Shown here one piece after another: positions 11,965-28,511 of a stretch of 46,784 nucleotides of DNA. The position numbers were made by a program, and so were the translations under genes. Source of the DNA: an uncultured SAR86 cluster bacterium (GTDB lineage: Bacteria; Pseudomonadota; Gammaproteobacteria; Magnimaribacterales; D2472); NCBI GenBank assembly GCA_902602185.1, contig CACKPV010000001.1:1-46784 (forward strand). The letters are read 5' to 3'. Each line of letters starts with the position of its first letter. Position 1 is the stretch's first letter. The notes under the pieces are model-generated. The model had not been told where the DNA came from. It did not search any database and worked only from the letters and a program-made list of their open reading frames with translations.

Positions 11965-12945
11965 ATGAGAATTTGTCACTTTTTATCAAGCAAAAGTTTT
12001 GCAGGCATTGAACAATATGTTGATGAAATTTCGCAACAACAGTCTAAAGATAATGAGGTAATCATTGTTTGTGGTAGAAAAATACTTAGTAAATTCAATA
12101 AAAAGAATGTCTCTTTATTGAGTTTTTCAAGTCTTGGAAGAAATTCACCAATTGGTCAAATACGCCTTGCATTTCTATTAAGACAAATAAATCCTGATGT
12201 TATTTTTTCTCATGCTTCTAAACCAACTATTATGATAAATCGAATTAAACGACTTTTTAATTTTAAGCATATTGCCTGCTTACATGGTATAAAAAGTAAC
12301 CTTAAACATTTCCAAAAAGCTGATTTAATTATTGCCGGATCAAATCAAAGCATTTCATCCTTAAAAGGTTCAAACTTTAAAGTTATTCACAATTGGGCAC
12401 TTGAGCCCATAAATTACAACTCCTCTTCTCGAAAAGAATACTTTTTATCTATTGGAAGATTGGTAGAGGAGAAAGGTTTTGATCTCTTAATTGATGCTTG
12501 GAAAGAGATTAATGATCGTTTAATTATTATAGGTGATGGTCCTTTAAAAAAGGCTCTTCAAACACAAATTAAAAAAACCAATCAAGAGGATAAAATAATA
12601 ATAAGCCCTTCTGTTTCAAAACAAAATTTAGATGAAATTTATAGTAAGGCTAAGATGTTAATTATCTCATCACGCAGAGAAGGAGGTCCCAGAGTTGCAT
12701 TAGAGGCATTGGTTAGAGGGTTAAAAGTAATTTCTACAGATGTTGGTCACATGAATTCAATATTAGAAAAGCAATTTCTCTGCAGGAGAAATGATTTAGA
12801 AGCATTAAAAAAATTAATTTCAGATTCGTTTGAGTCTTATGAGGAAATTGATCAGTCAGAAGCATTCTGTAAAGTTAAAAAGAATTTCACAATTGAAAAT
12901 GCAAACCAACAACTATCTGATGCAATTAATTCTTTAACAATTTAG
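11965..12945 (+). CDS. Glycosyltransferase family 4 protein
   Basis: A 326-aa GT-B fold glycosyltransferase, likely cytoplasmic at the inner membrane. The C-terminal GT4 domain has the hallmark IGRLVEEKGFDLLIDAW near residues 158-174, IIGDGPLKKAL near 186-196, and an EGGPRVALEALVRGLKVI segment near 241-258 that carries the conserved E-x7-E type motif. The N-terminal acceptor domain begins MRICHFLSSKSFAGIEQYV. Acceptor and donor sugars cannot be read from the sequence. It follows the ELM1-like gene by 5 bases, and its 3' end overlaps the convergent GT4 gene by 20 bases. The role is probably lipopolysaccharide or another surface glycan. Confidence 0.85.
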   Translation: MRICHFLSSKSFAGIEQYVDEISQQQSKDNEVIIVCGRKILSKFNKKNVSLLSFSSLGRNSPIGQIRLAFLLRQINPDVIFSHASKPTIMINRIKRLFNFKHIACLHGIKSNLKHFQKADLIIAGSNQSISSLKGSNFKVIHNWALEPINYNSSSRKEYFLSIGRLVEEKGFDLLIDAWKEINDRLIIIGDGPLKKALQTQIKKTNQEDKIIISPSVSKQNLDEIYSKAKMLIISSRREGGPRVALEALVRGLKVISTDVGHMNSILEKQFLCRRNDLEALKKLISDSFESYEEIDQSEAFCKVKKNFTIENANQQLSDAINSLTI

Positions 12946-14008
12946 AGTACAAGTCTATTGTTTCAGATGTCATTCTGGAAACCGTAAAAATATTCTCAGA
13001 TGGTTGCAAATCCTTATTTTTAATTAATTTCTCAACAGTTTCTTGGAGTTGTATGACATCATTTAGTTTTACTAAACCTTCTGGAAATAGTGTTGATAAA
13101 ATCTCATTGGCACCTCCATGGTCCCATGCCACGACATTGGTTCCACAACTAATTGCTTCAATCATAGTTCTACCAAATGGTTCTGGTGAGGAAGATAAAT
13201 TAAAAACTAAATCTGAAAATTTATAAATATTGGAGATGTCATTCCTCGAATCAGTAAAAATTATTTTGTTTTCGCATTTGAGTTTAGCTATAAGAAATTT
13301 TAATTCTTTTAAATATCTTTTTTTTGATTTAGAAACTGGTCCAACAATTAATCCAATGAAAGTGTCATCAAGTTGACTTAAAAGTTTTACAAATGTATCA
13401 ACTCCCTTCCATCTTGTAATTCTAGTAGGCATGGTTAAAATTTTCTTATCTGCTACTGATGGAAATTGTTTTAAAAAAGAAATAATCCATTCTTTATCAA
13501 GAGGATTGTTATTAAAAATATTCATATCACATCCTCTTGGAATAACAGTAATTTTTTCATTAGGAATTTTATACTTTAATTGCATATATTCTTTTACAGT
13601 CTCTGAAATGGCAATACTATGATCAGTAAAAGACATTACTTGCGAATAAGTAGGGAAACTGTATAAACCATGAAAGGTAGAGACACAAATAGGTTTATTT
13701 TTTAATTTCTTTAAGGCAAAAAAATTAACCCATGCAGGCATCCTCGATCTAACATGGACAATATCTGGAGAAATATCCTCAATATGTTTTGCAAGTTCAG
13801 AACTTAAAAAAAAGGTTTTTAAACTCTTTTTATGAATTGGCATTGAAACATGAGATGATCCATTCTTCTCTAGTTGAGAAACTAATCTACCTCCATTAGA
13901 GATGACAAAAGATTTGTGGCCTTCTTCAACAAGTATTTTTGCTAAATCAATTGTACCCCTCTCAACTCCACCAATATTTAACTCGGGCAAGAGTTGAAGA
14001 ATTTTCAT
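12926..14008 (-). CDS. Glycosyltransferase family 4 protein, last gene of the TonB/ABC run
   Basis: A 360-aa GT-B glycosyltransferase. The N-terminal domain starts with MKILQLLPELNIGGVERGT, a classic GT4 opening with the GG(V)E glycine loop. The C-terminal domain shows PTRITRWKGVDTFVKL near residues 195-210, the conserved LS.SPEPFGRTMIEAISCGTNVVA segment near 274-297, and an IVGPV strand near 221-225. It is unlike the convergent GT4 gene in detail, so it is not a recent duplicate. The start overlaps the stop of the FtsX-type permease by one base (TAATG), so it is translationally coupled to the ABC exporter genes. Convergent 3' overlap with the other GT4 gene is 20 bases. Substrates are unknown. 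Confidence 0.85.
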   Translation of the reverse strand: MKILQLLPELNIGGVERGTIDLAKILVEEGHKSFVISNGGRLVSQLEKNGSSHVSMPIHKKSLKTFFLSSELAKHIEDISPDIVHVRSRMPAWVNFFALKKLKNKPICVSTFHGLYSFPTYSQVMSFTDHSIAISETVKEYMQLKYKIPNEKITVIPRGCDMNIFNNNPLDKEWIISFLKQFPSVADKKILTMPTRITRWKGVDTFVKLLSQLDDTFIGLIVGPVSKSKKRYLKELKFLIAKLKCENKIIFTDSRNDISNIYKFSDLVFNLSSSPEPFGRTMIEAISCGTNVVAWDHGGANEILSTLFPEGLVKLNDVIQLQETVEKLIKNKDLQPSENIFTVSRMTSETIDLYSKLLKN

Positions 14009-15234
14009 TATTCGTATCTTAAGGAGACAGCTGGATCAAGTTGTGCTGCTCTTCGTGCAGGCCAAATACCAAAAAATAGTCCTACTGCTGCTGCAAAACC
14101 CAATGATCCTAATATAGCACTGATAGGAATGTAGAAAGGCCAATCAGTATCTCCAAAAGTTGAAGCAAAATATGAGAAGATATACACCAATAATGATCCA
14201 AATAAAACTCCAATAATTCCCCCCAAGACACACAATAGGACTGCTTCAACAATAAATTGAAGCATTATTACTTTATTAGTTGCTCCCAATGCTTTTCTTA
14301 GTCCAATTTCTCTTGTCCTCTCAGTGACAGATACAAGCATAATGTTCATAACTCCGATTCCTCCTACTAAAAGACTGATAGAAGCAATCCCTGTTAGTAA
14401 GGCAGTAAAAATAGCAGTTGCCTGTCTCTCAAGATCTCTGTATTGAAACCAATCATTGATTCTAAAATCATTCTCTTGACCGGGACCAATGTCATGTTGA
14501 ACCCGCATAACACCCTCTATATATAACATTGCCTCTTCAACATTTGCGTCATTTGGAATTTTAACCATGATAGACCTTAAATTTTTCGATCCAAAAATTC
14601 TGGCACTTGCAGTCATTAAAGGTACATAGACTTCATCATCTGGTGATTCCCAGCCCTGCGAGCCTCTACTTTTTAACACCCCAATTACTTTATATGGGAT
14701 GCCATTAATCATTAATTCATTATTGAGCATTGCTCTATATGAGGTTTTTAATTCTTTGGGAACATCTGCTCCGATCACAACTACTCGTTCACGAGCAAGA
14801 TCTTCTTTCTCAGAAAAACTTCTACCATGCTCAATCTCGAAATCTCTTACGTCAAAAAAATTTGACCAATATGCACCAACATTTGCATTAAAATTGGCAT
14901 TACCAAATTGGATTTGCCGTCTTTCTTTCATCTCTGCTGAAACTTCCCATTCAAAATCTTCAAAGTTTCTCAATGCAGTAGCATCCTTAATTTCAATAGG
15001 AACCCAATCTCTTTTAACTCCTCCTCTATTTCTTTGTCCAGATCCAACCCACAAAATCCTACCACCCAAAGTCTGTATTTCTTCCTCTAAGGCTTTTTGA
15101 GCTCCCGCACCTATGCTGAGCATTGCTATTACTGAAGCAATGCCGATCACAATTGCCAGGGCTGTCAAGATTGTTCTGACGGGATTACCTCTGAGGGAGG
15201 CAAGAGATGTAAAAATAATTTCAGAAAGCAGCAA
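14008..15234 (-). CDS. MacB/LolE-like ABC transporter permease (FtsX family)
   Basis: Inner-membrane permease of a tripartite-type ABC exporter. At 408 aa it has the MacB_PCD plus FtsX plan: a first helix at about residues 22-42 preceded by LRGNPVRTILTALAIVIG, a periplasmic core domain at about 45-270, then three helices beginning with the ASISLLVGGIGVMNIMLVSVTERTREIGLRKALGA region near 283-317, which holds the conserved cytoplasmic loop. Unlike E. coli MacB it has no fused ATPase; that function is the separate gene at 16434-17114. The start is TTG at 15234 (reads MLLSEII), 6 bases after the adaptor stop, with only a weak Shine-Dalgarno. The product probably exports a peptide, lipid or drug. 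Confidence 0.87.
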   Translation of the reverse strand: MLLSEIIFTSLASLRGNPVRTILTALAIVIGIASVIAMLSIGAGAQKALEEEIQTLGGRILWVGSGQRNRGGVKRDWVPIEIKDATALRNFEDFEWEVSAEMKERRQIQFGNANFNANVGAYWSNFFDVRDFEIEHGRSFSEKEDLARERVVVIGADVPKELKTSYRAMLNNELMINGIPYKVIGVLKSRGSQGWESPDDEVYVPLMTASARIFGSKNLRSIMVKIPNDANVEEAMLYIEGVMRVQHDIGPGQENDFRINDWFQYRDLERQATAIFTALLTGIASISLLVGGIGVMNIMLVSVTERTREIGLRKALGATNKVIMLQFIVEAVLLCVLGGIIGVLFGSLLVYIFSYFASTFGDTDWPFYIPISAILGSLGFAAAVGLFFGIWPARRAAQLDPAVSLRYE

Positions 15235-15240
15235 GTTTAA

Positions 15241-16434
15241 TTAACCCCAAGACTTTACTCTTTGTCTAAATCTTTCCTGTCTATCTACAAGTCCTTTGCT
15301 CGGCAGTACAAAAACAGAATCTCCTTTGTTTAATCCCTCTTTAATTTCAACTCGAGAAAGATCTGATATTCCTATTTCTACCCATGCCATCTCAGGTTCA
15401 ATACTTCCTGATTTAAATACAATAAACTTTGTAAAATTTTCACCGATAACTTTTTTTTCTAAAAATTTATCAACTTTCTCTTTGCTAATTCCCAATATTT
15501 CAGCACCTGAATAAACATCTTTTCTAGTTCTCAAAGCTCCTGTTGGTGCGGATAAAGCAACATCTTTATCTACAACTTGAATGACAACATCTGTATTCAT
15601 TCCGAGTAATAAAAGATTGTCTTTATTATCAATATCGATGAGTACTGGAAAGATAGTAACTCCTTGTTCTACACGAGCAAGAGGCTCAATTTTTGAAACC
15701 GTACCTGAAAAGACCTCTTCTCTAAAAGCACTAACTCTGATGGAAACATTTTGTCCAACTGAAACCTTACCAATATCAATCTCATCAATAAATGCTCTTA
15801 TTCTGACTTTGGATAAATCTGCCATTTGCATGAGAAGAGTTCCTCCACCTACTGCAGTTGTTGGAGAGGATATTACCTGTCCTACTTCAACTGGTCTTGA
15901 AATTATAGTCGCGCTTAAGGGTGACTTTACAAGAGTGTCATCGAGTGAAATTTTTGCATTCTCAACATTTACCATGGATCGAACATGCTGAGATTTAGCA
16001 GATGCAAAACTTTCTTGAATTTCTTCGAAATTTTTGTCGGCAATACTTCCTTCATTATGCAAGGCAGTCCCTCTTTCCAGTTGAGCAGATGCATTTGTAA
16101 GTCGAACTTCTGCAAGACGTAGGTCAGCTTCTGCTTGATCTAAAATATTCTTTGGTGTTCTTTGATCAATTCTTGCTAAGATCGATCCCTTCTCAACAAA
16201 ATCACCAACCTCAGCAGGTAAATCCAAAATTTCTCCAGATGCTTTAGATTTGATTTCAACAGAATAAATTGCTTCTACCTCACCAGAAGCTTCAATAGTT
16301 AAATCTAATTTAGAAGGCTCAACCGGTTTCTTTTGATAATAAGTAAATGAATCATCTGAACTTGAATCACCACCGCAACTAACTAGAAATAAAACAAGTG
16401 GCAAGAATAATATGTATTTGGTAATGTTATTCAT
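15241..16434 (-). CDS. MacA-like periplasmic adaptor lipoprotein (HlyD/MFP family)
   Basis: Periplasmic adaptor that links the FtsX-type permease to an outer-membrane channel. The 397-aa protein begins with a lipoprotein signal peptide: the lipobox LVSC puts the acylated cysteine at residue 20, and CGGDSSSD follows it. The barrel-sandwich/lipoyl half is at about 48-75 (SIEVEI-like strand and GDFVEKGSILARID), a coiled-coil hairpin is at about 78-140, the second lipoyl half LVKSPLSATIISRPVEVGQ is at about 155-175, and beta-barrel and membrane-proximal domains follow. No outer-membrane TolC homologue is in the window. The ATG overlaps the ATPase stop (TAATG). Confidence 0.87.
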   Translation of the reverse strand: MNNITKYILFLPLVLFLVSCGGDSSSDDSFTYYQKKPVEPSKLDLTIEASGEVEAIYSVEIKSKASGEILDLPAEVGDFVEKGSILARIDQRTPKNILDQAEADLRLAEVRLTNASAQLERGTALHNEGSIADKNFEEIQESFASAKSQHVRSMVNVENAKISLDDTLVKSPLSATIISRPVEVGQVISSPTTAVGGGTLLMQMADLSKVRIRAFIDEIDIGKVSVGQNVSIRVSAFREEVFSGTVSKIEPLARVEQGVTIFPVLIDIDNKDNLLLLGMNTDVVIQVVDKDVALSAPTGALRTRKDVYSGAEILGISKEKVDKFLEKKVIGENFTKFIVFKSGSIEPEMAWVEIGISDLSRVEIKEGLNKGDSVFVLPSKGLVDRQERFRQRVKSWG

Positions 16435-17114
16435 TAGTTTCTATGATCAGACTCAACAAGGCCATCTTTAACAGTGATAACTCTTTCGGTTTGATCAGCA
16501 ATCGATTTTTCGTGTGTGATTATTATAATAGTTTGTCCTTTTATATGCAGCTCCTTAAATAAACCCATAATGTCAGCTCCGGTTTTTGAATCAAGATTAC
16601 CTGTGGGTTCATCAGCAAAAATTATACTAGGTTCATTCACCAATGCTCTTGCAATTGCTACTCGTTGTTGCTGACCTCCAGATAACTCAGAAGGTTTATG
16701 ATCCATCCTATCTTCTAACCCAACTCTGCTCAGAGCAAGTTTTGCCTTTTCAATAGCAGACTTTTTGTCAAATCCCGCATAAGACAGAGGTAGAAGCACA
16801 TTTTGCAAAGCTGTATTTCTTGCTAAAAGATGAAAAGATTGAAATACAAACCCAATTTTTTTATTTCTAATTTCAGCAAGCTCATCGTCTGTTAGTGATG
16901 CAACCTCATTATTATCAAGAGAATAAGATCCTGAAGTTGGGGAATCCAGACATCCAATTATATTCATTAATGTGGTTTTTCCAGAACCAGATGGCCCCAT
17001 AATTGAAATAAACTCACCCTGATTAATTGAAAAGGACATTTGTTTGATAGCTTTGATAGTTTGGTTTCCAATAGCAAAGTGTTTTTGCAAATCACTAACT
17101 TCGATTAATTTCAT
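16434..17114 (-). CDS. ABC transporter ATP-binding protein, MacB/LolD type
   Basis: ATPase subunit of the MacAB/Lol-type exporter (226 aa, normal for a stand-alone LolD/MacB-NBD). Walker A GPSGSGKT is at 40-47, the Q-loop FVFQSFHLL near 88-96, signature LSGGQQQR at 144-151, Walker B IIFADEPTGNLD at 164-175 and the switch histidine in IIITHEKS near 202. It is followed by the adaptor (1-base overlap) and the permease. Its start lies 4 bases after the stop of the TPR protein, so the exporter genes continue directly from the TonB gene run. The substrate is unknown. Confidence 0.92.
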   Translation of the reverse strand: MKLIEVSDLQKHFAIGNQTIKAIKQMSFSINQGEFISIMGPSGSGKTTLMNIIGCLDSPTSGSYSLDNNEVASLTDDELAEIRNKKIGFVFQSFHLLARNTALQNVLLPLSYAGFDKKSAIEKAKLALSRVGLEDRMDHKPSELSGGQQQRVAIARALVNEPSIIFADEPTGNLDSKTGADIMGLFKELHIKGQTIIIITHEKSIADQTERVITVKDGLVESDHRN

Positions 17115-17118
17115 TTAA

Positions 17119-18333
17119 CTAACCGGCAGTTGATTTAAGATAATTTATGTAATCCAACCATGGTTCTACGACATCCTCTTTACCAAGATCTCTTGCTTTG
17201 GATAGATAGTTAACTGCTTGGTCGAGTTTCTCAAGTTCAATGAAGCAAATGCCAATAAAATACTCAATTTGACCCTCTTCTTCCTCCCATCCATTCTCTT
17301 GAGCTGACAAAAAAGCATCAATAGCTTTTTGCCACCTACTTAAATTGAGCTCAATTTGCCCAAGTCGGTATGAAAGTTGAGGGTTCTCCGATAGTTTTGA
17401 AGCCTCTGTCAGTATATCTGCTGCCCTTAAATATTCTCTAGATGAGGAATAAGCATTTGCTAATGTTTCAAGATTATCAGCATTTCGTTCAATTACTTTT
17501 CTTTTTAATCCCATATTGATAACTTTTGAAGCCTCAATTGGAACCTCCTTGTACATATAAAAGTTTGCTAACAGCAAATAATCATTCTCTTTTTCAAGCA
17601 AATTTTGTGTAAGTCCAAACTCTAAAGAGGATAGGGATTCGACTTCAAAATCCAACTCAGAAAACATTGCACCCATTTGTTCAAGATATTTTTTTTCTCT
17701 TGGGTAATTTCTCACAAGGTCCTGTGAAGTAGATAATGCCAATGAAAAATCTTCAAGTTTGTAATGTAAAGCAAATTTTAACTCATACCATGATTTAACA
17801 AAGATATTAGAATTTTCTACAGCTTCTGTAATATAAGCAACAGCTGGCTCAAACTCATCTAACTGAGAATAACAAATTGCAATTAGTGCAACACCTTTTG
17901 GAGTTAACTCATAATTTCTTCTTTTTCCCTTGTCATACCAATCCAAAAGATAATTTAAAGCTTTTTGATAATCTCCATTAGATGCAATAATTTGAGAGAT
18001 AACATAATACAAATGATGCTCATCTCTATCTTCTAAAGCTCTTTTTCTCAGAGACCATTCTAAAAACTTTAGACCTTCATCCGGTCTATCCTGTTGAATC
18101 AGAAAGAAACCATAATTTTTAAGAATGATTGCATGATCAAAAGACCTTGATGGCCAATATTCATTAACCATCTCAAGATAATCTTCTTCAGCTTCAGCAA
18201 ACCTTCCCTCGGCAATTTTCGCATCAATACTGAGTAATTCGTAATAAACCCAAGATTTCAGAGTATTGTTTCGATTTTGTGCATCTGTTAAAAATGGGAT
18301 AATTAGTAAGATTGCAAAAATATATTTCTTCAT
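17119..18333 (-). CDS. Periplasmic TPR protein of the TonB2/TtpC system
   Basis: A 404-aa exported tetratricopeptide-repeat protein. A signal peptide is visible (KKYIFAILLIIPFLTDAQ, cleavage near residue 19), followed by about nine TPR-like helix pairs, for example AEGRFAEAEEDYLEMV near 39-54, ASNGDYQKALNYLLDW near 113-128 and ENPQLSYRLGQIELNLSRW near 318-336. Vibrio and Shewanella TonB2 clusters carry a TPR gene after tonB2 that supports TonB function; position and topology here match that. Its ATG overlaps the tonB stop by 4 bases (ATGA). The exact partner is not shown by the sequence. Confidence 0.8.
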   Translation of the reverse strand: MKKYIFAILLIIPFLTDAQNRNNTLKSWVYYELLSIDAKIAEGRFAEAEEDYLEMVNEYWPSRSFDHAIILKNYGFFLIQQDRPDEGLKFLEWSLRKRALEDRDEHHLYYVISQIIASNGDYQKALNYLLDWYDKGKRRNYELTPKGVALIAICYSQLDEFEPAVAYITEAVENSNIFVKSWYELKFALHYKLEDFSLALSTSQDLVRNYPREKKYLEQMGAMFSELDFEVESLSSLEFGLTQNLLEKENDYLLLANFYMYKEVPIEASKVINMGLKRKVIERNADNLETLANAYSSSREYLRAADILTEASKLSENPQLSYRLGQIELNLSRWQKAIDAFLSAQENGWEEEEGQIEYFIGICFIELEKLDQAVNYLSKARDLGKEDVVEPWLDYINYLKSTAG

Positions 18334-18959
18334 AGCGTAAACTCAATAGTTGTCAGTCCCCTTTGTTTTACAGCAACACCACCGGAAACTCTTGGTTTAA
18401 ATTTCCATTTTAATACAGCTTGGATCGCAGCTGCATTAAATATTGTAGATGGACTAGCTTCTCTAATTTTTGCTGAAAGAACATTTCCAGATTCATCAAC
18501 TAAAAGTTCAACAATAACATAACCTTCTCTTCCCTCCAGCAATGCTTTCCTTGGATACCTTGGTGAAATCCTTACCAAAGGAATCAAACCTCCATCAGAA
18601 ATAAATTGACCTCCTCCTACTAGGGCTCCGTCAGTATCTATAGGCATATCAATATCAGGGAGATTGATGTCAAGTTTAGGTGTAGGTAGTTTTTTCAGTT
18701 CAGGTTGCTCCAATTCAGGAGGTGGTGGTCTTTTAGGTGGAGGTGGTTTATCAGGTAACCTTCGATCTCTTTCGTTTAAAGTATCGTCTTTTTTAATTCT
18801 AATAAAATCAACCATTTGTCTATCTTTAAGTGCATTTAAATCAAGGTCACCTGGTTTGATTAACATATACATAAATATAAATAGAAGGAAGGATACTAAT
18901 GCTCCCCCGGATATAAAAAATAAATTCTTTTTAATCTTTTTCTGCTGCAATTGAGACAT
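18330..18959 (-). CDS. tonB: TonB2-type energy-transducing protein
   Basis: Energy-transducing protein that spans the periplasm and contacts TBDTs. From ATG at 18959 it is 209 aa. A GGAG Shine-Dalgarno lies about 8 bases upstream; a TTG at 18974 is less likely. A single N-terminal helix is at about 12-34, a Pro/Glu/Lys-rich linker at about 69-96 (DKPPPPKRPPPPELEQ), and the TonB C-terminal domain from about 125 with SPRYPRKALLEGREGYVIVEL-type core, ending WKFKPRVSGGVAVKQRG and a beta strand. The short linker is typical of TonB2. It overlaps exbD by 29 bases. It probably serves the three TBDTs in the window as well as others. Confidence 0.93.
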   Translation of the reverse strand: MSQLQQKKIKKNLFFISGGALVSFLLFIFMYMLIKPGDLDLNALKDRQMVDFIRIKKDDTLNERDRRLPDKPPPPKRPPPPELEQPELKKLPTPKLDINLPDIDMPIDTDGALVGGGQFISDGGLIPLVRISPRYPRKALLEGREGYVIVELLVDESGNVLSAKIREASPSTIFNAAAIQAVLKWKFKPRVSGGVAVKQRGLTTIEFTL

Positions 18960-19332
18960 TTTGAACTCCAGCAAGCCTAACTTGATCCATGGTTTCTACT
19001 AAAAGACCTGTTTTAGAATTTTGATCAGCTTGGATTATTACAGAACCTTCAGGATTTTCAGCTTTGAGTCTTTCAACATTAGCTCTAACTGCCCTCAGAT
19101 CAATAAGTCTTTTATCAATATAAATTTCATTATTTTCTGTAATTGCAATTAAGATATTTCCTCTTTCATCAGCAACTGCAGTTGAAGCATTTGGTCTGTT
19201 AACCTCTACTCCAGTTTCTTTAATAAAAGTTGTCGTGACAATAAAGAAGATCAACATAATGAAGACGATATCCAGCATCGGAGTAATATCAATTGTCGAA
19301 TCTTCAGCTGGTCTTTTTCTTCTTCTAATCAT
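18931..19332 (-). CDS. exbD: ExbD biopolymer transport protein (TonB2 system)
   Basis: Inner-membrane component of the proton-driven ExbBD motor (133 aa). It has one N-terminal helix carrying the essential aspartate in the DITPMLDIVFIMLIFF segment, near residue 21, and a periplasmic domain ending in LAGVQNVSIAAEKD. The start ATG overlaps the exbB stop by 8 bases and the tonB gene begins 29 bases before its stop, so exbB-exbD-tonB are tightly coupled. The length matches ExbD2. Confidence 0.95.
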   Translation of the reverse strand: MIRRRKRPAEDSTIDITPMLDIVFIMLIFFIVTTTFIKETGVEVNRPNASTAVADERGNILIAITENNEIYIDKRLIDLRAVRANVERLKAENPEGSVIIQADQNSKTGLLVETMDQVRLAGVQNVSIAAEKD

Positions 19333-19852
19333 TATCGAAAACTTTAATCCTTCTTGTAGTCTTTGTATTAATGTATCTTTCTAAGAATGTTATAGCAAAT
19401 AATCCAGATATAGAAATAACCAAACCAGTCATTGTCGGAAGAGTTGCTTTTGAAACTCCTGAAGCCATTGCTCTAGGGTTTCCAGTTCCTGTAAAGGCCA
19501 TGACATCAAAAACTTCAATCATTCCTGTAACGGTTCCAAGGAGCCCAAGTAATGGACAAAGGGCAACCAAACCTTTAATTTGATTAATATTTTTATTTTT
19601 TGAGAGTGTGATTTCAGCTAAAAACATTTTTTTTATTTTCTGATTGGTCCAATTGTCTGCAGTAATCATATTTTGATAAGAGATAAAAGATTCATTAATT
19701 TCGTCTTTAAGTAAATATTTATAAAAAAAGAATCTTTCTGTCAAAAGAATCCACATATACAAGGCAACTATAAACAGAACTATTAATACATAACCACCCT
19801 GATTAATATAAGTTGCAAAAAGTGTAAAAGGCAGAAAAAGATAATAAAACAT
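19325..19852 (-). CDS. exbB: ExbB-type proton channel protein (ExbB2)
   Basis: Second MotA/TolQ/ExbB protein of the cluster, 175 aa with three hydrophobic helices. The first is at about residues 20-36; the channel helices carry ALCPLLGLLGTVTGMIEVF near 96-114 and MTGLVISISGLFAITFLERY near 140-160. This is the short ExbB2 that assembles with ExbD around TonB. It overlaps the upstream ttpC gene by one base (TAATG). Confidence 0.93.
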   Translation of the reverse strand: MFYYLFLPFTLFATYINQGGYVLIVLFIVALYMWILLTERFFFYKYLLKDEINESFISYQNMITADNWTNQKIKKMFLAEITLSKNKNINQIKGLVALCPLLGLLGTVTGMIEVFDVMAFTGTGNPRAMASGVSKATLPTMTGLVISISGLFAITFLERYINTKTTRRIKVFDND

Positions 19853-21207
19853 TATATCTCTTTAGCAGCTACCTTCCCTATTGCTTGCTCTTCAATAATT
19901 TGGATAATTTCTCTGCTCCTAGTATCCAGTTGGTTGTGAACAAATAGAAGAGGTACGGCAGTTATTAAACCAAGCATGGTTGTTACTAATGCTTGTGAGA
20001 TACCATCAGCCATTAATTTAGGATCTCCAGTACCAAATAAAGTAATTGCTTGGAAAGTTTCAATCATACCTATAACCGTTCCTAACAAACCTAACAAAGG
20101 TGCAACAGCAGCTAATAGTTTTATAGTACTTAGATTTTTTTCATATAAAGGACCTATTTTGGAAAGTACAGCCTCAATTTTAGTTTCAACTTGCTCAAGA
20201 TTTGATGAGTTTTTATTGGATATAATTTCCTCTATTTCTTTTAATGGAGTGGCATCAGTGAAGACACCAGAAGATAATTCGGCATCCAATACTTTTTTAC
20301 TATCAAATAGGTATCTAAACCTCATGGCACCCATTATCAAACCAGCTAAAAGAATAACTAAAATAAAATAACCTACAATTCCACCCTGATTAACTCTTTC
20401 AACAGCACCGGGATTTTGTAATATCAAAGACAACAATGAGCCACGAGTAGGATCAATCTGAAATTCAGCATAACCACTCTCAGCAATTTCATTTAAACCT
20501 CTTAGACTTGATCTAGATCCTGGAGGATTCTTTTGCAAAAACTCCAATGCTTGCTCTTCGGGAATAAATCTTAGATAAGTGCGATCAGCAACAGCGTTGA
20601 ATTGACCAACTCTAATAACTTGAGTTGTGGTAGATGAGCCACTTGTATCAAAAACATCATAATTAAAAGATGTGACTTTCCCAGATTCATACATTTCATT
20701 GAGAAGTTCGTACCAAAGTTGCTCTAATTCAGATACTTTAGGCAGTGCCTTCCTTTGAGCAAGTTCACCCAAAAATGCTTCCCGATTAGGAAATTGCAGA
20801 TTAGTTAATGATTGATTAAAGTTACTTTTTGCATCGCCACTGATTTGTCTTACGACACCAAAAGTCTCCCCTAATGTTCCAACTTTTAAATTAAGTTGCT
20901 CTTCAAGATCAGATAATCTTTTGTCATTATCTTCAAAAGTCTTTGTAAGCACCTTCTCTCTATTCTTCTCTTTTGTTAAAAGCCATCTTGCATCGTTTAG
21001 AAGTTTTTGCTGTCTTGCTTTGTTTGCAAGAAAGTCGTCAAGTCTTTTTTGATCATCCTTAGTTCTTAAAGTAGAGCTATCTTTGACTAAATCTAAAAGA
21101 ATCTCAATATCGGTAGGTGGTTGTACTACCACTTCGGATTCATCTTGAGAGTGCAACATAGGCACACAAAGCAATATAGGAAGGATTAGATTTCTAATTT
21201 TCATCAT
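19852..21207 (-). CDS. ttpC: TtpC-type ExbB/TolQ protein with N-terminal periplasmic extension
   Basis: Larger ExbB-family protein (451 aa) of the TtpC type, required with ExbB2/ExbD2/TonB2 for siderophore or other uptake in Vibrio. It has a signal peptide (ILPILLCVPMLHSQ, cleavage near residue 21), a long periplasmic, coiled-coil-prone region at about 25-270, then helices at about 275-295 and two channel helices, AAVAPLLGLLGTVIGMIETFQA near 366-387 and LVTTMLGLITAVPLLF near 408-423. The start may be at 21207 or 21204 (ATGATG). It overlaps the DUF3450 stop by 14 bases. The symbol is used by analogy with Vibrio. Confidence 0.9.
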   Translation of the reverse strand: MMKIRNLILPILLCVPMLHSQDESEVVVQPPTDIEILLDLVKDSSTLRTKDDQKRLDDFLANKARQQKLLNDARWLLTKEKNREKVLTKTFEDNDKRLSDLEEQLNLKVGTLGETFGVVRQISGDAKSNFNQSLTNLQFPNREAFLGELAQRKALPKVSELEQLWYELLNEMYESGKVTSFNYDVFDTSGSSTTTQVIRVGQFNAVADRTYLRFIPEEQALEFLQKNPPGSRSSLRGLNEIAESGYAEFQIDPTRGSLLSLILQNPGAVERVNQGGIVGYFILVILLAGLIMGAMRFRYLFDSKKVLDAELSSGVFTDATPLKEIEEIISNKNSSNLEQVETKIEAVLSKIGPLYEKNLSTIKLLAAVAPLLGLLGTVIGMIETFQAITLFGTGDPKLMADGISQALVTTMLGLITAVPLLFVHNQLDTRSREIIQIIEEQAIGKVAAKEI

Positions 21208-21970
21208 ACGAAGTTAACGGTATTGTTATTAATGTTGGTGGTGCTTGTTTTAGGGCAATCTTAAGGCCATCAACAGTTGCTCTTTTAATGGTTCCAGAAG
21301 ACGGTTCCCATGTATTGGTTGTTTTATTCCAATATCCAGCTTTATCACCATTAGTAGTCACAAACATAAGTGCGACTCTACCAATCCTTAAAAAATCAGC
21401 ATTAAAGTTTTCACCATCAAAATCTATAGAGGATCGATATGCCTCAATAGTCCTGCCATAATCTGTTTCAATTTGATACGCTTCGGTAATTTTTCTAAAT
21501 TTTTCTGACGTAGAAACATCACCACGGTCTAAAATGTCTTTAAGGTTTTTGACACGAGATGTTCTCTCATCTTTTAAAAAAGGGGCATCTAAGAGTATAA
21601 ACTTTTCTAAGGCATCAACCATTTTCAACATCAGAGGAATCATATTTATATTAATGTTATCCAACTCATCAATTTGATTGATGATAGATGCAATTTCCTC
21701 TTCCTGTGAAGCTATAATTCTCTCAAGTTGATCATTATAAAGTTTGAGATTTTCATATTCTTTGAATGTATCTTTATAATCAAATTCAATTAATCTTGTT
21801 TCTTCACTTAACTGGTCTAACTCTTTTTGATTTTGTGCACCTGAATTGAGTGAATTAGTTGAAATATCTAGGGATTCTCCTAGGTTATCTGGTTGTGGAG
21901 TTTCTTGGGCATTTAGCAAAAATGGAGCTAAGAAAAGTACCCAATAAAAATTATTAATTTTAATGTTCAA
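21194..21970 (-). CDS. DUF3450 protein, first gene of the TonB2 operon
   Basis: Periplasmic protein of the DUF3450 family that regularly precedes ttpC in TonB2 clusters. From TTG at 21970 it is 258 aa: a hydrophobic signal segment FYWVLFLAPFLLNAQ ends near residue 22, followed by a long coiled-coil region at about 30-120 (heptad-rich, many Glu, Leu and Ile) and a C-terminal alpha/beta region. I prefer TTG at 21970 over TTG at 21988 because GAGGGA lies just upstream as a Shine-Dalgarno and gives a normal signal peptide; a -10-like TATAAT also lies just upstream. The role is unknown beyond its genetic link to TonB2. Confidence 0.82.
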   Translation of the reverse strand: MNIKINNFYWVLFLAPFLLNAQETPQPDNLGESLDISTNSLNSGAQNQKELDQLSEETRLIEFDYKDTFKEYENLKLYNDQLERIIASQEEEIASIINQIDELDNININMIPLMLKMVDALEKFILLDAPFLKDERTSRVKNLKDILDRGDVSTSEKFRKITEAYQIETDYGRTIEAYRSSIDFDGENFNADFLRIGRVALMFVTTNGDKAGYWNKTTNTWEPSSGTIKRATVDGLKIALKQAPPTLITIPLTSYDEN

Positions 21971-21990
21971 TGTTCCCTCGGTGGACAAAT

Positions 21991-21996
21991 ATTATA
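21991..21996 (-). promoter_or_regulatory. Possible -10 element for the DUF3450-ttpC-exbBD-tonB operon
   Basis: On the minus strand TATAAT lies 20 bases before the TTG start, giving a leader of about 14 bases that contains GAGGGA. No convincing -35 is present; the upstream DNA is the poly-T of the TBDT-1 terminator. The operon may instead depend partly on read-through of that terminator. Confidence 0.3.
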
Positions 21997-22008
21997 TTAG
22001 AAAAACAT

Positions 22009-22039
22009 AAAAAAAGGCAGCTAATGCTGCCTTTTTTTT
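22009..22039 (-). terminator. Rho-independent terminator after TBDT-1
   Basis: A perfect 6-bp stem GGCAGC/GCTGCC (22016-22021 and 22026-22031) with a 4-base TAAT loop is flanked by A and T runs on both sides, so it can work in either direction. On the minus strand it follows the TBDT-1 stop at 22052 and precedes the DUF3450 start at 21970. Confidence 0.9.
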
Positions 22040-22051
22040 ATAATGATTTTA

Positions 22052-25000
22052 TTAGAATCTCATCTGGAAAATCACATCAACTGCAGGTCCAAGAATTGGA
22101 TAAAAATTCCTGTTAACAGCTGTGAAGTCATATGATGAGTTACCATAAGCAGCATCTTTATCAGGTAGTGAATCCAAACAATTACTACATGTTAAACCTA
22201 CATACATATCATCAGTGATGTCGTAGTAAACACCAGCATTAACAGGCATGTAAGGACTTAACTTGGTATTTTCAACCGCATTCACGTGACCGATTCTGCT
22301 AATTGAAATAGATGCACTCCAGTCTCTCAAGTTCCAGGATGTAGTTACAACCTGTCTAGAACGTGGGACATATGCAGAGTTCATATAGTCAAATCGTGAC
22401 TCACCTTGACTTTCTGCTTGCTTAAGAGCTAACTGATTTGAACCTCTGAGTGAGAAATTAAAATCACCAGCTGTATCAGTTACTAAGGTATACCTCATGG
22501 ACCAGTCAGCACCTTGATATTCCTGACTAGCAATGTTCAAAGGTTGATCATATACCGCAAAAATACCTGGAACTGCATTAGGGTCTGTTAATTCTAGACC
22601 ACCGGCAGGTTTACCATCCCTAATAATACTGTCATAAATTGATTGACAATATGAACCAGAGTAAATTGGCGCATTATCAATTGGTGAACCAGCTGCTTGA
22701 GCATAACAATATGCTTCATCAAGCAAGATTGCTGATGTACTTCTATCGGAAACGATATCTTGAAGAATAACTTTATAAAAATCTAAAGTCATTGAGAATC
22801 TTTCGATTGGTGACCATACAACACCAAGAGAGGATGAGTATCCTGATTCATCTTTAAGATTTGGGTTACCTCGAGTATAAGCTTCTATGTTAATGACATC
22901 ATAACCTTGAGCACCACAGTTAATTACTGAACCAGTAACTAACCAACATTGATAATAGTCAATACCACTAGCAAATCCTTGGGTCTCATCGATAAATGCT
23001 TGTTGCATATCTGGAGCACGGAATGATTCAGACCAACCACCACGAACAAGAACATCTTCATTCGGACGGTATTCGAAGTTCATACCAACAGTAGTTCTGT
23101 CAACATTCACAACTCTATCATCATATTTATCTTTACGAGCCGATAGAGAAACAGCAAACTCAGAAGTGAGAGGTAGTCTTAACTCACCACCAGCAGCATA
23201 TCTATCTCTAGATCCACCACTATCGACATAACCAGTACCCCAAACAAGGCCATCAACAACATTTGAAGATGGGAATACGTCGTATCCAGTATCCTGATAT
23301 TCAGCTACAAGTGCAAAACCAATTGGTCCACCTGCTAGCATTCCGAATTCACCAACTAAAGATGCTGTTGCAAAATCAGAGAAAGATTCAGCACTGTCTC
23401 CAGCATCAAGTCTATAGTTTTCATAATCAAAGTCAGCACCACTAAAGAACCACTCATCATTGAAACATGTTGGTTGACCCCACAAGAATGCTCTAATGTA
23501 AGCATAGTAAGGATCGGTTGCTGGATCAAATCCACCAGCCCAGTAACCACCATCGATTAATTGCTGAGCATCCATAACACATGGATTACCCAAAGCATCA
23601 TTTCCACCAATATTAAAATAAAGATCGTTCATTTTTTGATCGTCCCAAAGTCTACTTGTTGACTCTGAGTCATATTCATTGGTTGTATAGGAAACATCAT
23701 ATTCCCAACCGTTTTCAAGGACTCCACGAATACCAACATCAATTGTTGTTGAAGTTTCTTCGTAAGCATTATCCCATGTTGGGGGAGCAAACATTTTATA
23801 ACCAAGTCTGTCAGCAACCCACATGGTTCCACCAGTAACAGGGTTAGGAACACCTAATCCTTGTGGTCCATAATTAGAATAACCAACAACCCATGGTCCT
23901 GGTGAGTTAGCTACACCACCACCGGCAGGATAATAAAAACTTGCAAAGTATTGACCTGTAGTTTCAGTGTCAAATTGCATAGCTTTAAAGTACAGTTCGG
24001 AATTTTCACTTAAGGTATATGCACCTGAAAAGAAAATGGACATGTTATCTCTTTCGTTGAAAATAGTACTTGGTGGTTGTACTGGCCACAAACAAGCATT
24101 TCCAACTCTAGTAGCATCAGGGTCATATGCTTGGTAATTGTTTTCAACAGCACCGGGAACATTTGTAGTTGTACTACAAGTCCATCCCATTAAGTTACCA
24201 TCAGGACCAGCTATTGTGCTCGGACCGTGTCTAACATAACCTCTAGCATCGGTTGCATAGTAAGAACCATAGGAAAATGCAGCCCACCATGGAACTCCAA
24301 CACCTTCTGGATTTCCTTTGCCGTCGTCGTAGTTATCGTATTCATCTCTGTCTTGAGATGTAAGAGGATCTAAATGTCTAAATTCGGCAGCAACAGTCCA
24401 AGTAAGTCTGTCCATAACTCCACCAGTTGTAAATTCAACTGCATATTCTTGACCAAATCCGTCTCTGGATTCGACATATTCACCAGCAACCACTCTAATA
24501 GTTGATTCTTCAACTCCTTCGACAAGCACAACGTTAATAACACCAGCAACAGCATCAGAACCATAAATGGATGAAGCACCAGCAGTTAGAATTTCTATTC
24601 TTTCAACTGCAGCTAATGGAATCGATGCCCAGTTAAATGATGCTGAGTTTGAGTTATATGGAAATGGATAGTCTGCCATTCTTTTACCATTCACAAGAAC
24701 TAGAGTTCTTCCTGGTCCAAAATCACGCAAGTCTACGACCTGGTTAGCAGGTGTAAATCCAGCCTGAAAGTTCTCACCACTAACTTCACCGATGGCTTGT
24801 GTCAGATTAGATACAGTTTCATAAACTGTGCCATAACCAGCAGCATCAATATCTGCACGAGTGATAACAGTAATAGGAGTTGCACCTTCAATATCGACTG
24901 TTTTAATTCTTGAACCTGTTACTGTAACTCGACCAACGTCTTCGACATCCTCGTCTTCGTCGGCTTCATCAACCTCTACAGATTCAACTGTTTCTTCTAC

Positions 25001-25096
25001 AGAATCAACTTCATCTACAGTCTCATCAGCATATGAAAATGATGAAAAAGACAATGTAAACATGAAGAAAATTACATAACTAAATAATTTTTTCAT
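22052..25096 (-). CDS. TonB-dependent receptor 1 (outer membrane)
   Basis: A 1014-aa outer-membrane receptor importing an unknown large substrate. A signal peptide (MKKLFSYVIFFMFTLSFSSFSYA) ends near residue 23, then an unusually acidic stretch of about 30 residues (about 24-53). The TonB-box-like RVTVTGSRI follows near 56-64, the plug domain at about 70-200 contains LRDFGPGRTLVLVNGKRMADYP and AAVERIEILTAGASSIYGSDAVAGVINVVL, and a 22-strand barrel ends VIFQMRF with a terminal Phe. The start has a GGGGA Shine-Dalgarno. It is divergent from an S9 peptidase, hinting at peptide-derived substrates, and directly upstream of the TonB2 operon. Its own terminator follows. Substrate is not readable. 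Confidence 0.95.
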   Translation of the reverse strand: MKKLFSYVIFFMFTLSFSSFSYADETVDEVDSVEETVESVEVDEADEDEDVEDVGRVTVTGSRIKTVDIEGATPITVITRADIDAAGYGTVYETVSNLTQAIGEVSGENFQAGFTPANQVVDLRDFGPGRTLVLVNGKRMADYPFPYNSNSASFNWASIPLAAVERIEILTAGASSIYGSDAVAGVINVVLVEGVEESTIRVVAGEYVESRDGFGQEYAVEFTTGGVMDRLTWTVAAEFRHLDPLTSQDRDEYDNYDDGKGNPEGVGVPWWAAFSYGSYYATDARGYVRHGPSTIAGPDGNLMGWTCSTTTNVPGAVENNYQAYDPDATRVGNACLWPVQPPSTIFNERDNMSIFFSGAYTLSENSELYFKAMQFDTETTGQYFASFYYPAGGGVANSPGPWVVGYSNYGPQGLGVPNPVTGGTMWVADRLGYKMFAPPTWDNAYEETSTTIDVGIRGVLENGWEYDVSYTTNEYDSESTSRLWDDQKMNDLYFNIGGNDALGNPCVMDAQQLIDGGYWAGGFDPATDPYYAYIRAFLWGQPTCFNDEWFFSGADFDYENYRLDAGDSAESFSDFATASLVGEFGMLAGGPIGFALVAEYQDTGYDVFPSSNVVDGLVWGTGYVDSGGSRDRYAAGGELRLPLTSEFAVSLSARKDKYDDRVVNVDRTTVGMNFEYRPNEDVLVRGGWSESFRAPDMQQAFIDETQGFASGIDYYQCWLVTGSVINCGAQGYDVINIEAYTRGNPNLKDESGYSSSLGVVWSPIERFSMTLDFYKVILQDIVSDRSTSAILLDEAYCYAQAAGSPIDNAPIYSGSYCQSIYDSIIRDGKPAGGLELTDPNAVPGIFAVYDQPLNIASQEYQGADWSMRYTLVTDTAGDFNFSLRGSNQLALKQAESQGESRFDYMNSAYVPRSRQVVTTSWNLRDWSASISISRIGHVNAVENTKLSPYMPVNAGVYYDITDDMYVGLTCSNCLDSLPDKDAAYGNSSYDFTAVNRNFYPILGPAVDVIFQMRF

Positions 25097-25269
25097 AATA
25101 AACTTCCCCGTTTATTTTATTTTTTACTACGACTTATCCTCTTAAAACAAGCCTCCAGACGATTATATTGACATATATTTCAATGATTGCAAGCATTTGC
25201 TTAATTTTTTAAATATAATATGAATGTAAAATTTATTAACCAACTTTTTTAAAAATTAAGGAAATTCTA
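25097..25269. promoter_or_regulatory. Divergent TBDT-1 / S9 peptidase promoter region
   Basis: This 173-base gap is AT-rich. On the minus strand a TATAAT at 25162-25167 has TTGCAA upstream at an overlong spacing of about 19 bases, giving a leader of about 60 bases for TBDT-1. On the plus strand a TATAAT at 25214-25219 precedes the peptidase ATG by about 50 bases, but its -35 is weak. No Fur-box-like palindrome was recognised. Confidence 0.35.
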
Positions 25270-27360
25270 ATGAAATCTAGATTTATTCTTCCAATCTCAT
25301 TTTTTTATTTATTAGCATTGAGTGCTGTTTCGATTGAGGCCAAACAAATACCTCTTGAAAAACTTATATGTTACGGAGAAGGTTCAAGTGTATCCATATC
25401 TCCTGATGGCAAATTTTATGCCTCAATGGTTCCTTCAGGTGAGGTAAGTTGTGATATTACCGATCCCGAAGAAGATCTTGCAGTGCCTGTTTTGGTGGTC
25501 ATTAATCTTGAAACAATGGAACCAAAACTTTACTCAGGTACACAAATTAATAATAGAGTTACCAGTGCAACTTTCCTTAATAACGAACAATTACTTATTC
25601 GTCGCTCTTGCCAGGTTGGTGCTGGCGATCAATTTAATGCTGATTGTTATTCTCTTTACGTGTTAGATGTAACTACTGGTAAAAGAGAATTAATTCTTGC
25701 AGCAAAGCAAACAAGTAGAGGTCAGGGAGCAAGAATTCCTCAACTATTTGATGTGATGCCTCAGTATCCAAATAAAGTTTTGGTAACCATTAATCGTATG
25801 CCACAGTTTACCTATAGATATCGAGATTTGTATTGGTTAGATCTTGAAACTAAGGAAACAACTAAAATTGCGGAAGTACCTACAATCGATAATGAACAAT
25901 TTTCTGGCTGGATGGTTGATCATGAAGGTAACGCAAGAGGATTCTCAACTAGTCATGATGCTGGAAGAGATAGAAAACCAAATTCTGCTAAAGATGGATT
26001 ATATACCTACTTTTATATGATGGATTCTAAAACTGGCAATTATAAAAGGATGCAATCATGCAAACATCAAGAACCTTGCTTATATCCACTAGATTTTGAT
26101 CTAGATAACAGACATGTTTTTGCAGTCGGGCAAGCAGTTCTAGCAGATGGAACTCTTGATCCTGATTGGGAATATACTGATACGAATGCTTTGTGGCTTT
26201 ATGATTCAGAAACAGGAAAAGTAGTAGAAAAAGTTTTTCATGATAAGAAATATGATTTTTCAAACCCTCGACAAGGTTACTCAGATGGGTATGTTTTAAT
26301 CGATCGAGTTAATAAGAAATTACTTGGCTTATCTTATTATGCCGATAAAAGAAAATACGTTTATTACGATCAAGGTTATGCAAACCTGCGGGAGTCTGTG
26401 AAGGCAACTTTCCCTGAAAAAATCGTAAGTATAGTGCCAAATTCAGATCTTACTAAAGTAATCATAAATACATCCTCTGAAAAAGATCCAGGCACAGGAT
26501 ATTTTTATGATGTTTCAAAAGGCAAGATAGAGTTCATTGCTTCTTATGCCCCTTGGTTGCAGGATTATGATTTAGGCTCAACTTATCCTTTTGAATTTAC
26601 TGCAAGGGACGGAGTTGAGTTAATGGGATACTTAACTCTTCCACCTGGATATAAAAAAGGTGACAAAATTCCATTTATCTTACATCCTCACGGAGGGCCA
26701 AATGCTAAAGATAGATTTGGTTTCAACCCTGAGGTACAAATTTACGCAACAAGAGGATATGGTGTTCTTCAAATTAATTACAGAGGCTCAGTTGGATTCG
26801 GTTTAAAAGAAATGAAACTAGCAAATAAACAATGGTCTCTTGCCATGCATGATGATCTTCTTGATGGTTTATTTTGGGCAAATGATCAGGGCTATGTAAA
26901 TATGGATAAAGTCTGTATTTCAGGAGCAAGTTATGGTGGTTATTCTGCGATGGTCGGGATTACTAAAAATCCTGATATATTTAAGTGTGCCATAAACTAT
27001 GTTGGAGTAGTTGACCTATACACATTATATGATGACAAACAATGGATGTTTGCTGACATGGGTAGACCACAACAGCATATTGAAATGGGTGACCCTAATA
27101 CCGAGAGGGATATTCTGGAGAATGCTAGTCCAATTAACTATGTAAATAATATTAAGGGTGATCTCTTTGTTATTCATGGAAGAAGAGATAGGCAAGCATC
27201 ATATGAACAAGTTCTACAATTAAAAAGAGCTTTGGAAAGTGCTGATATTGATTTTGAATACATGATCAAAGGAGATGAAGGTCATGGATTTTATTCAGAA
27301 GCAAATAATTTAGAATTATATGAAAGAATGATTAGTTTCTTGGAAACTAATTTAAATTAA
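25270..27360 (+). CDS. Secreted S9-family serine peptidase (prolyl oligopeptidase family)
   Basis: Serine peptidase of clan SC, family S9, 696 aa, with a signal peptide ending near residue 24 (LSAVSIEA), so it is likely periplasmic or surface-located. A beta-propeller part fills about 30-420 and the alpha/beta-hydrolase domain about 440-696. The triad is visible: Ser554 in GASYGGYS, Asp640 in HGRRDRQ and His672 in GDEGHGF. The oxyanion region HPHGGP is near 472-477. It diverges from TBDT-1, so both may belong to a peptide-scavenging unit. The stop overlaps the convergent gcdH stop by 4 bases. Acylaminoacyl-peptidase is a possible subtype. Confidence 0.92.
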
Positions 27361-28511
27361 AAAGCACTGGAGCCAGTTTGTTCTTGTCCCATTATCAGGG
27401 CATGTATGTCATGCGTGCCCTCATAAGTATTAACAGCTTCAAGGTTCATCGAGTGTCTGACAACATGATATTCATCAGCAATACCATTGCCTCCATGAAT
27501 ATCTCTTGCAGTTCTGGCAATATCTAGAGCTTTGCCGCAATTATTTCTCTTTATCATTGAAATCATAACTGGTTTTGCTTTTCCTTCATCAATTAGTCTG
27601 CCAACTCTCAAAGCCATCTGTAACCCAGATGAAATTTCAGTCTGCATGTCAGCAAGTTTCTTTTGAATAAGTTGCTTGGAAGCAAGTGGTTCACCAAACT
27701 GTTGTCTTTCCTGAACATATTTGAGGGTTTGCTCCCAACAAAATTCAGCTGCTCCCATTACACCCCATGCAATACCATATCTTGCCGAATTAAGACATGT
27801 AAAAGGTCCTTTAAAACTCTGAACTTCAGGCAGCACTCTGTCTTCAGGTACAAAAACATTGTCCATAAAAATCATGCCGGTTGCAGATGCTCTCAAAGCA
27901 AATTTTCCATCTATGTGTGGTGTACTCAAGCCCTTGGAATCTCTTTCAACAATAAATCCTCTTAGCACACCCTGCTCATCCTTTGCCCAGATAATGCAAA
28001 GATCTGCAATTGGTGAATTTGTTATCCAGGTTTTTGAACCTGATAATGAAAAGCCACCCTCGACTTTCTTTGCAATAGTTTTCATACTTGCTGGGTCAGA
28101 ACCGGCATCCGGTTCAGTTAGGCCAAAACAACCAACGATAGTGCCGGTTGCCATACTGGGGAGATAATGTTCTTTTTGTTCTTCAGATCCAAAATTGTAA
28201 ATAGCATACATTGCTAGTGATGATTGCACGCTAAAAGCTGATCGATAACTTGAATCCACTCTCTCAATCTCTCTTGCTATTAATCCATATGCAACATTAT
28301 TAACTCCAGAACATCCATAGCCATGAAGATGCGGTCCTAGTAATCCTAGTGAACCTAACTCTCTATAGATTTCTTTATTAAAAACTTCGTTTCTATTTGC
28401 ATCTTGAATGCCTGGCATTAAAGCTTTTTCACAATAATCCCTTGCTGTTTTTTGAACTGCCAACTCCTCTTCGGTAAGTTGCTCATCAAGCAATAAAATG
28501 TCGTTTAGCAT
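27357..28511 (-). CDS. gcdH: Glutaryl-CoA dehydrogenase
   Basis: FAD-dependent acyl-CoA dehydrogenase of the glutaryl-CoA type (384 aa), which oxidises and decarboxylates glutaryl-CoA to crotonyl-CoA in lysine, tryptophan or glutarate degradation. Supporting motifs are the [15 protein letters not shown] segment near 90-104 typical of [17 protein letters not shown] near 128-140, the FAD-binding [11 protein letters not shown] near 338-348, and the catalytic Glu364 in [12 protein letters not shown]. It is preceded by the Smr-like gene (14 bases apart) and convergent with the S9 peptidase. It is not part of a visible full lysine-degradation cluster. Confidence 0.88.

Follow-up and report, generated by a model that had tools for sequence, protein, structure and literature searches.

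The stretch of DNA considered here (the window, 46,784 nucleotides) comes from an uncultured SAR86 cluster bacterium, its three closest named hits being SAR86 records, and carries ten genes, all on the minus strand between 12926 and 21988, in which a TonB energisation system runs directly into an ABC exporter. The open reading frame list gave the same borders as had been read before from the letters, and family searches assigned the genes, in the order of transcription, to a DUF3450 protein (ttpB, 21194..21988), the long ExbB-like protein TtpC (19852..21207), ExbB (19325..19852), ExbD (18931..19332), a TonB_C protein (tonB, 18330..18974) and a TPR protein (17119..18333), followed by a MacB/LolD-type ABC ATPase (16434..17114), a MacA-like periplasmic adaptor with the lipobox LVSC (Cys20; 15241..16434), a permease with MacB_PCD and FtsX domains, encoded apart from its ATPase (14008..15234; MacB 5gko, E 4.3e-56), and a GT4-type glycosyltransferase (PF13439, PF00534; 12926..14008), which closes the exporter operon and is missing from the gene maps of some relatives. 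An earlier note on this DNA had recognised a TonB2 layout in the first six genes, and their one-strand order is indeed that of ttpB-ttpC-exbB-exbD-tonB-ttpD in Vibrio vulnificus, where, in the accessible part of the published account, the DUF3450 gene is named ttpB2 and the TPR gene ttpD2 (PMC6957404); the TPR protein of the window corresponds to TtpD by position and type.

The genes are packed as closely as the earlier note had it. Neighbours overlap by 14 bases (DUF3450/ttpC), 1 (ttpC/exbB), 8 (exbB/exbD), 44 (exbD/tonB) and 4 (tonB/TPR), the TPR and ATPase genes are separated by 4 bases (17115..17118, with no room for the promoter or terminator that the earlier note had looked to at 17114-17119 as a sign against it), and the exporter genes follow with an overlap of 1 (ATPase/adaptor), a gap of 6 (adaptor/permease) and an overlap of 1 (permease/glycosyltransferase). 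Two of the annotated starts are probably too long, a TTG at 21970 behind GAGGGA being likelier for DUF3450 and the ATG at 18959 for tonB. The description of these genes as fused in one tight run stands for their adjacency, but no proteins are fused and the packing is unremarkable: across 246,784 bases of the window's genome, gaps of 6 bases or less separate 103 of 165 same-strand neighbours, and a 13-gene tight run elsewhere in them is longer than the ten-gene run. Such packing is normal in this genome and carries no special signal, and we therefore rejected tightness alone as evidence of a link.

The natural unit reaches past 21988. A TonB-dependent receptor gene (22052..25096, minus strand) precedes ttpB, with a terminator-like hairpin (22009..22038, minus strand) in the gap, and beyond a promoter region between divergent genes (25097..25269) lies an S9 (prolyl-oligopeptidase family) peptidase gene with a signal-like N-terminus (25270..27360, plus strand); the outer flank is an acyl-CoA dehydrogenase gene (27357..28511, minus strand). 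The TonB3 operon of V. vulnificus also begins with an outer-membrane receptor, as far as the accessible text goes (PMC6957404), but in SAR86 the receptor gene is followed by the hairpin. The SAR86 unit further differs from the Vibrio Ttp systems in that it fronts an ABC exporter and has the divergent S9 peptidase, and no good Fur box was found for it.

The exporter resembles MacAB-TolC in its MacB_PCD/FtsX permease and its MacA-like adaptor, with the one OEP/TolC-type open frame found in the window's genome (an assembly of 1.09 Mb, 1,092,018 bases, in 12 contigs, about 82% complete) as candidate partner, and differs from it in having ATPase and permease as two proteins, a lipoprotein-like adaptor and an attached glycosyltransferase. 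ATPase and permease each cover a part of the NCBIfam full-length MacB model and stay below its cut-off (966 bits), while the adaptor passes the cut-off of TIGR01730 (144.2 over 94.9 bits), falls below that of the MacA equivalog model (79.3 vs 342) and matches MacA chains in the PDB. A second DUF3450-ttpC-exbB-exbD-tonB-TPR set, with no adjoining exporter and with a longer TPR protein (490-aa frame), lies on contig 2 of the window's genome (G000:C2:186659-191802, L173), and sets of this kind also appear on the maps of eight further SAR86 genomes, from families f1, f2 and f3.

Cassette and exporter as separate modules

The TonB cassette, about 10 kb from the S9 peptidase through the receptor to the TPR gene, sits between the acyl-CoA dehydrogenase and exporter ATPase genes, and in SAR86 it is optional. 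In the window's family, 79 of 107 genomes yielded the permease, at 80 places; among the ttpC matches listed, the cassette was present at 43 of these and absent from 27, and 10 were left unclassed. A place was filled when a TonB block lay between dehydrogenase and exporter, or directly before the exporter where the contig ended early, and empty when the dehydrogenase lay within 2.5 kb of the permease with no TonB block. The ttpC input consisted of 54 rows picked by eye from those matches, presumed rows of the second TonB set being left out; ten had no permease on their own contig, nine of them at a contig end and the tenth in G126. Gene maps show two of the unclassed places as filled (G008, G020) and one as empty (G019). 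By genus (g1 being the window's own), the filled places fall in g5 (19), g6 (9), g1 (7), g8 (4), g7 (2), g3 (1) and g10 (1), the empty ones in g9 (19), g7 (5), g6 (2) and g2 (1). On the exporter tree, from which G085 and G036 were left out and where G019 and G052 were not counted, cassette presence switched at least four times among the 56 rows with a state. It is the TonB block that comes or goes as a unit, the exporter being the more constant module; where the cassette is absent, the dehydrogenase gene precedes the ABC operon. In the neighbourhood survey of the TPR-ATPase junction that the earlier note had called for, the gene maps show the junction recurring across SAR86 genera beyond chance, though the cassette is optional.

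The gap between dehydrogenase and ATPase genes is filled in some empty genomes by a 151-aa gene of the F420H2_quin_red family (L161:8106-8561), and therefore accepts more than one insert. Cassette-free g7 and g9 genomes have another gene, 725-755 aa long, directly before dehydrogenase and exporter (L156, L161, L163, L169, L224, L225, L226, L227); in both cases tested, L156 and L161, it encodes a TonB-dependent receptor. A similar arrangement considered for SAR86 family f2 (G052) was dropped, the 758-aa gene upstream of the ABC operon encoding an FGE-sulfatase/hydrolase protein.

Cassette and exporter do not share one history. For the window's ATPase, adaptor, permease, GT4 protein and neighbouring glycosyltransferase (GTb), the nearest relatives are in g1, the adaptor being about 80% identical to g1 vs about 64% to g8. 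By contrast, all the cassette genes, S9 and TPR included, resemble those of g8 more than those of the seven other g1 genomes in the comparison, where these genes were available, with 38-39% identity of the TPR protein to other g1 vs 56-62% to g8; in another g1 genome, G007, the two cassette genes available are of the window's type. In trees of 41 rows, the window's cassette groups with g8 and the other g1 cassettes with g6, whereas in the exporter tree g1 stays together. With 39 rows, and with the reservation that these are quick trees and that the groups were picked after the identities were known, the cassette data reject a single g1 clade (p 2.9e-49) and a single g6 clade (p 2.4e-45), and the exporter data reject both the pairing of the window with g8 (p 3.4e-52) and a group, suggested by the cassettes, that would join two g6 and four g5 genomes (p 5.6e-78). 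The tests left out L064, identical to a g5 row, and G085, which looks like a mixed bin: its contig 5 (L202), assigned to g7, has a cassette and an exporter almost the same as those of g5 genomes. Versions of the cassette thus seem to have passed from one SAR86 genus to another in one piece, bounded by the S9 end on one side and the TPR/ATPase junction on the other.

Outside SAR86, one of 77 MacB-type loci (55 of at least 15 kb) shows tonB-exbB-exbD immediately ahead of MacAB and on its strand. This locus, in a metagenome-assembled genome of Rhodocyclales (L090:5050-11173), carries the three genes upstream of a MacA/fused-MacB pair and represents an independent adjacency. Two others (L130, L141) have such genes on the opposite strand, and L091 contains a TonB-dependent receptor. 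In all eight other genomes, among 143 of the class, that carry both DUF3450 and a MacB-type permease, the two lie on different contigs, a weak result, contig extents being unchecked.

A palindrome shared by both modules and transcription signals

An 18-bp palindrome, TGTMAAGTNNACTTKACA, was found with 0-1 mismatch in 17 of 59 regions upstream of the exporter ATPase gene, while none of 3000 random windows of 260 bases contained it at up to 3 mismatches. In its exact form it is present, at one to four sites each, in 27 of 37 genomes of the window's family vs 1 of 24 others, and the reversed pattern gave no site in the same 61 genomes. At the exporter (at most 1 mismatch), it occurs in 7 of 8 g1 loci (all but the window), 1/1 in g3, 3/3 in g8, 5/6 in g9 and, in g7, all four empty but neither of the two filled loci, and is missing from the single locus that each of g2, g4 and g10 provides. 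Among three named loci, the exporter palindrome is carried by L063 and L065 but not by L064; in G017, G072, G078 and L065 the site lies behind the dehydrogenase gene and before the 151-aa gene that precedes the ATPase gene. The same palindrome (at most 2 mismatches) stands at the divergent promoter of S9 peptidase and receptor in g1 (5/7), g3 (1/1), g6 (9/9) and g8 (3/3), and in 1/23 g5 and 0/2 g7 loci, counts that include G009 and G030, whose sites fall within over-long S9 reading frames. G085 was retained in the palindrome counts by genus and in the hairpin counts below. Both places carry the palindrome in 9 of the 36 genomes in which both are available. The remainder of the same loci (1,075,585 bases) holds one exact site, none at 1-2 mismatches and 15 at 3, and the lone exact site is the receptor promoter of G128, where no S9 sequence was available. 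In the window the palindrome is missing from both the divergent promoter and the junction.

Elsewhere in these genomes the palindrome recurs near other genes. In ten genomes viewed it lies next to a TolC-type gene (OEP confirmed by Pfam in three of the ten), and twelve have it ahead of a gene encoding a putative membrane-spanning protein of about 150 residues, followed by a helix-turn-helix (HTH) gene of about 65 residues (HTH_3, Cro/CI-type, confirmed in four of the twelve). In one or two genomes each, it stands upstream of an RND pump pair or of a gene for an S9, an M16 or an S49 (SppA-type) peptidase (L261, L270, L327, L335, L336), and beside PQQ_2-type and thioredoxin-like genes. The envelope and peptide theme among these neighbours is a tendency, not a rule. 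A SoxR- or TyrR-like box, considered for the palindrome, was set aside because the repeated neighbour is an HTH_3 gene. In the window's genome, a thioredoxin-like gene, a 110-aa gene and an S49 (SppA-type) gene stand together (G000:C1:76135-78801, L184), without the FMN_red-family and membrane-protein/HTH genes seen at a like place in g8 and g9 relatives.

Simple scans of positions 12000-23000 returned 27 promoter-like sites vs 43.1 expected and 5 terminator-like sites vs 5.3 expected, and tell nothing beyond the strong hairpin at 22009-22038. Such a terminator-like hairpin follows the receptor gene in 45 of 47 loci, in the gap before DUF3450, while none was found in the 43 TPR/ATPase junctions scanned, so that in the loci examined transcription of the TonB operon can continue through the exporter. 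For part of the family, a controlled start of the exporter itself is probable as well: in seven of the eight g1 loci an operator-like palindrome lies at the junction, and a separate start is likely there.

Interpretation and known parallels

The explanation that we hold with moderate confidence is that a MacAB-type exporter and an optional uptake cassette are two modules with a common junction, which in part of the family belong to one small regulon. A palindrome present at both modules, at tolC and at the membrane-protein/HTH pair is read most simply as one small regulon, in which it would control cassette, exporter and tolC in several relatives. The receptor with its own Ttp-type TonB complex would import a ligand, possibly peptide-like; the S9 peptidase may cut it; and the exporter, split into MacA/MacB-type parts with a glycosyltransferase and most likely working with TolC, would expel a compound from the periplasm, either the cleavage product or excess ligand. 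In the window's lineage, transcripts of the TonB operon probably read through into the exporter; palindromes and the HTH gene were not found in the window's genome, and only read-through would couple the modules there. What the data show directly is gene order, presence and absence, conflicting trees and the shared palindrome; regulation, the partnership with TolC, read-through and the handling of a peptide-like ligand are inferred. As to the functional link between uptake and export proposed in the earlier note, adjacency is insufficient and the modules are separable, with separate histories, but the palindrome shared by cassette promoter and tolC in relatives lends the idea some support.

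Several observations weigh against this explanation. The exporter palindrome is found in 0/18 g5 and 0/11 g6 loci, though the same junction is present, and at the cassette it is missing in 22 of 23 g5 loci; therefore, control is not shared throughout, even among loci in which the two modules adjoin. On the tolC side, the palindrome also faces a divergent GyrB/ParE-type gene in the ten genomes, and some palindromes stand at genes with no envelope role, such as an epimerase gene and a DUF3604/Band_7 pair. The HTH protein is a candidate regulator by its position only, and it was not seen in own-genus relatives with sites, where no search was aimed at it. In the window's genome, as far as this incomplete assembly goes, no exact palindrome is found, the best match having 2 mismatches, there is no match for the palindrome-linked HTH gene, and the TolC gene, 82% identical to that of G004, has no palindrome in front. 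G007 has an exact palindrome before tolC and a 3-mismatch match at its S9/receptor promoter; since it keeps the tolC site, the loss of sites may be local and not a loss of the regulator. Moreover, most of the genomes compared are incomplete, and the dehydrogenase gene on the outer flank barely separates g1 (81-82% identity) from g8 (78-81%).

An alternative, held to be unlikely, is a positional accident: a permissive insertion site in front of an unrelated exporter, with co-transcription that has no functional meaning. The separate histories, the pattern of presence and absence, the 151-aa gene housed in the same gap in some g7 and g9 genomes, the usual dense packing and the missing exporter palindrome of g5 and g6 speak for it. 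Against it stand the one rare palindrome that g1 and g8 have at both promoters and at tolC, and g3 at both promoters, and the absence of terminator-like sites from the 43 junctions when 45 of 47 receptor genes are followed by one.

Metallophore handling, in which the receptor takes up a metal chelator and the exporter recycles it, appears rather improbable. In its favour, the receptor plug resembles CirA and FepA, a similarity that is generic, and the best-described parallel that we found belongs here: according to the accessible text of one study, a split MacB exists in Pseudomonas, and P. aeruginosa PA2911-PA2914 and PA4063-PA4066 pair uptake through a TonB-dependent receptor with such an exporter under Zur, and are proposed to import and export pyochelin-cobalt (PMC11481552). 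The Pseudomonas genes form two separate Zur-controlled operons with an ABC importer, whereas the SAR86 modules are adjacent and include a TonB complex and a peptidase. Against metallophores, the 12 Fur-box matches that score best in the window (Fur only, Zur boxes aside) all lie away from 25097-25269 and from the DUF3450 start, the best 19-mer match being 15/19, at 1856. Fur-type control is given for the Vibrio TonB2 operon and TonB3 is apparently not iron-regulated, in the accessible part of that account (PMC6957404), so the missing Fur box does not exclude membership in the Ttp type. The S9 gene at the cassette edge and the S9, M16 and S49 peptidase genes near palindromes point rather to peptides. 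The nearest solved relatives of the S9 protein are aminoacyl- and dipeptidyl-peptidases, and the substrate of uptake and export is possibly a peptide; a role of the S9 protein as lasso-peptide isopeptidase was discarded, its match reaching 43.2 of the 400 bits of the cut-off.

That TonB energy and export form one dedicated machine, working only together, is very improbable and was rejected as stated, for, despite the tight run, the conserved junction and the lack of a junction terminator, the exporter occurs without the cassette at 27 places, the conflict between trees falls at the junction, and in G018 tonB directly precedes the ATPase gene, with the TPR gene beside S9 on another contig.

A more specific version of the two-module explanation, which we put forward as a doubtful extension, is a circuit that imports, cuts and expels a peptide-like compound, where one membrane-linked HTH regulator would govern receptor, TonB complex, exported peptidase, MacAB-type exporter and TolC, and where the uptake half would be swapped between lineages like an allele. 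If this were true, the swapping would change the compound handled. In replacement-type flexible genomic islands of marine bacteria, divergent versions are block-replaced between constant flanks; the SAR86 cassette is like them in its block replacement and unlike them in being one uptake system of nearly constant gene order. In the accessible text of one study (PMC11582366), SAR86 counts among the bacterial groups of highest abundance in the surface ocean, and its many TonB receptors are annotated chiefly as cirA and fepA, plus fiu, fecA and btuB. Hit lists were partial and most subscription papers were out of reach, and within these bounds no publication turned up that treats this SAR86 locus or how it is controlled. 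A receptor that is block-replaced with its own TonB complex, and in some lineages shares a putative control site with exporter and TolC, would offer a concrete handle on what SAR86 TonB receptors import; the candidate regulator and its site are open to testing in vitro, and co-expression could be read from metatranscriptomes.

Apart from this locus, the window contains at 380-5437 another tight run, composed of an ABC-2 permease, an ATPase, an unknown 446-aa gene, a VWA gene and an AAA ATPase gene.

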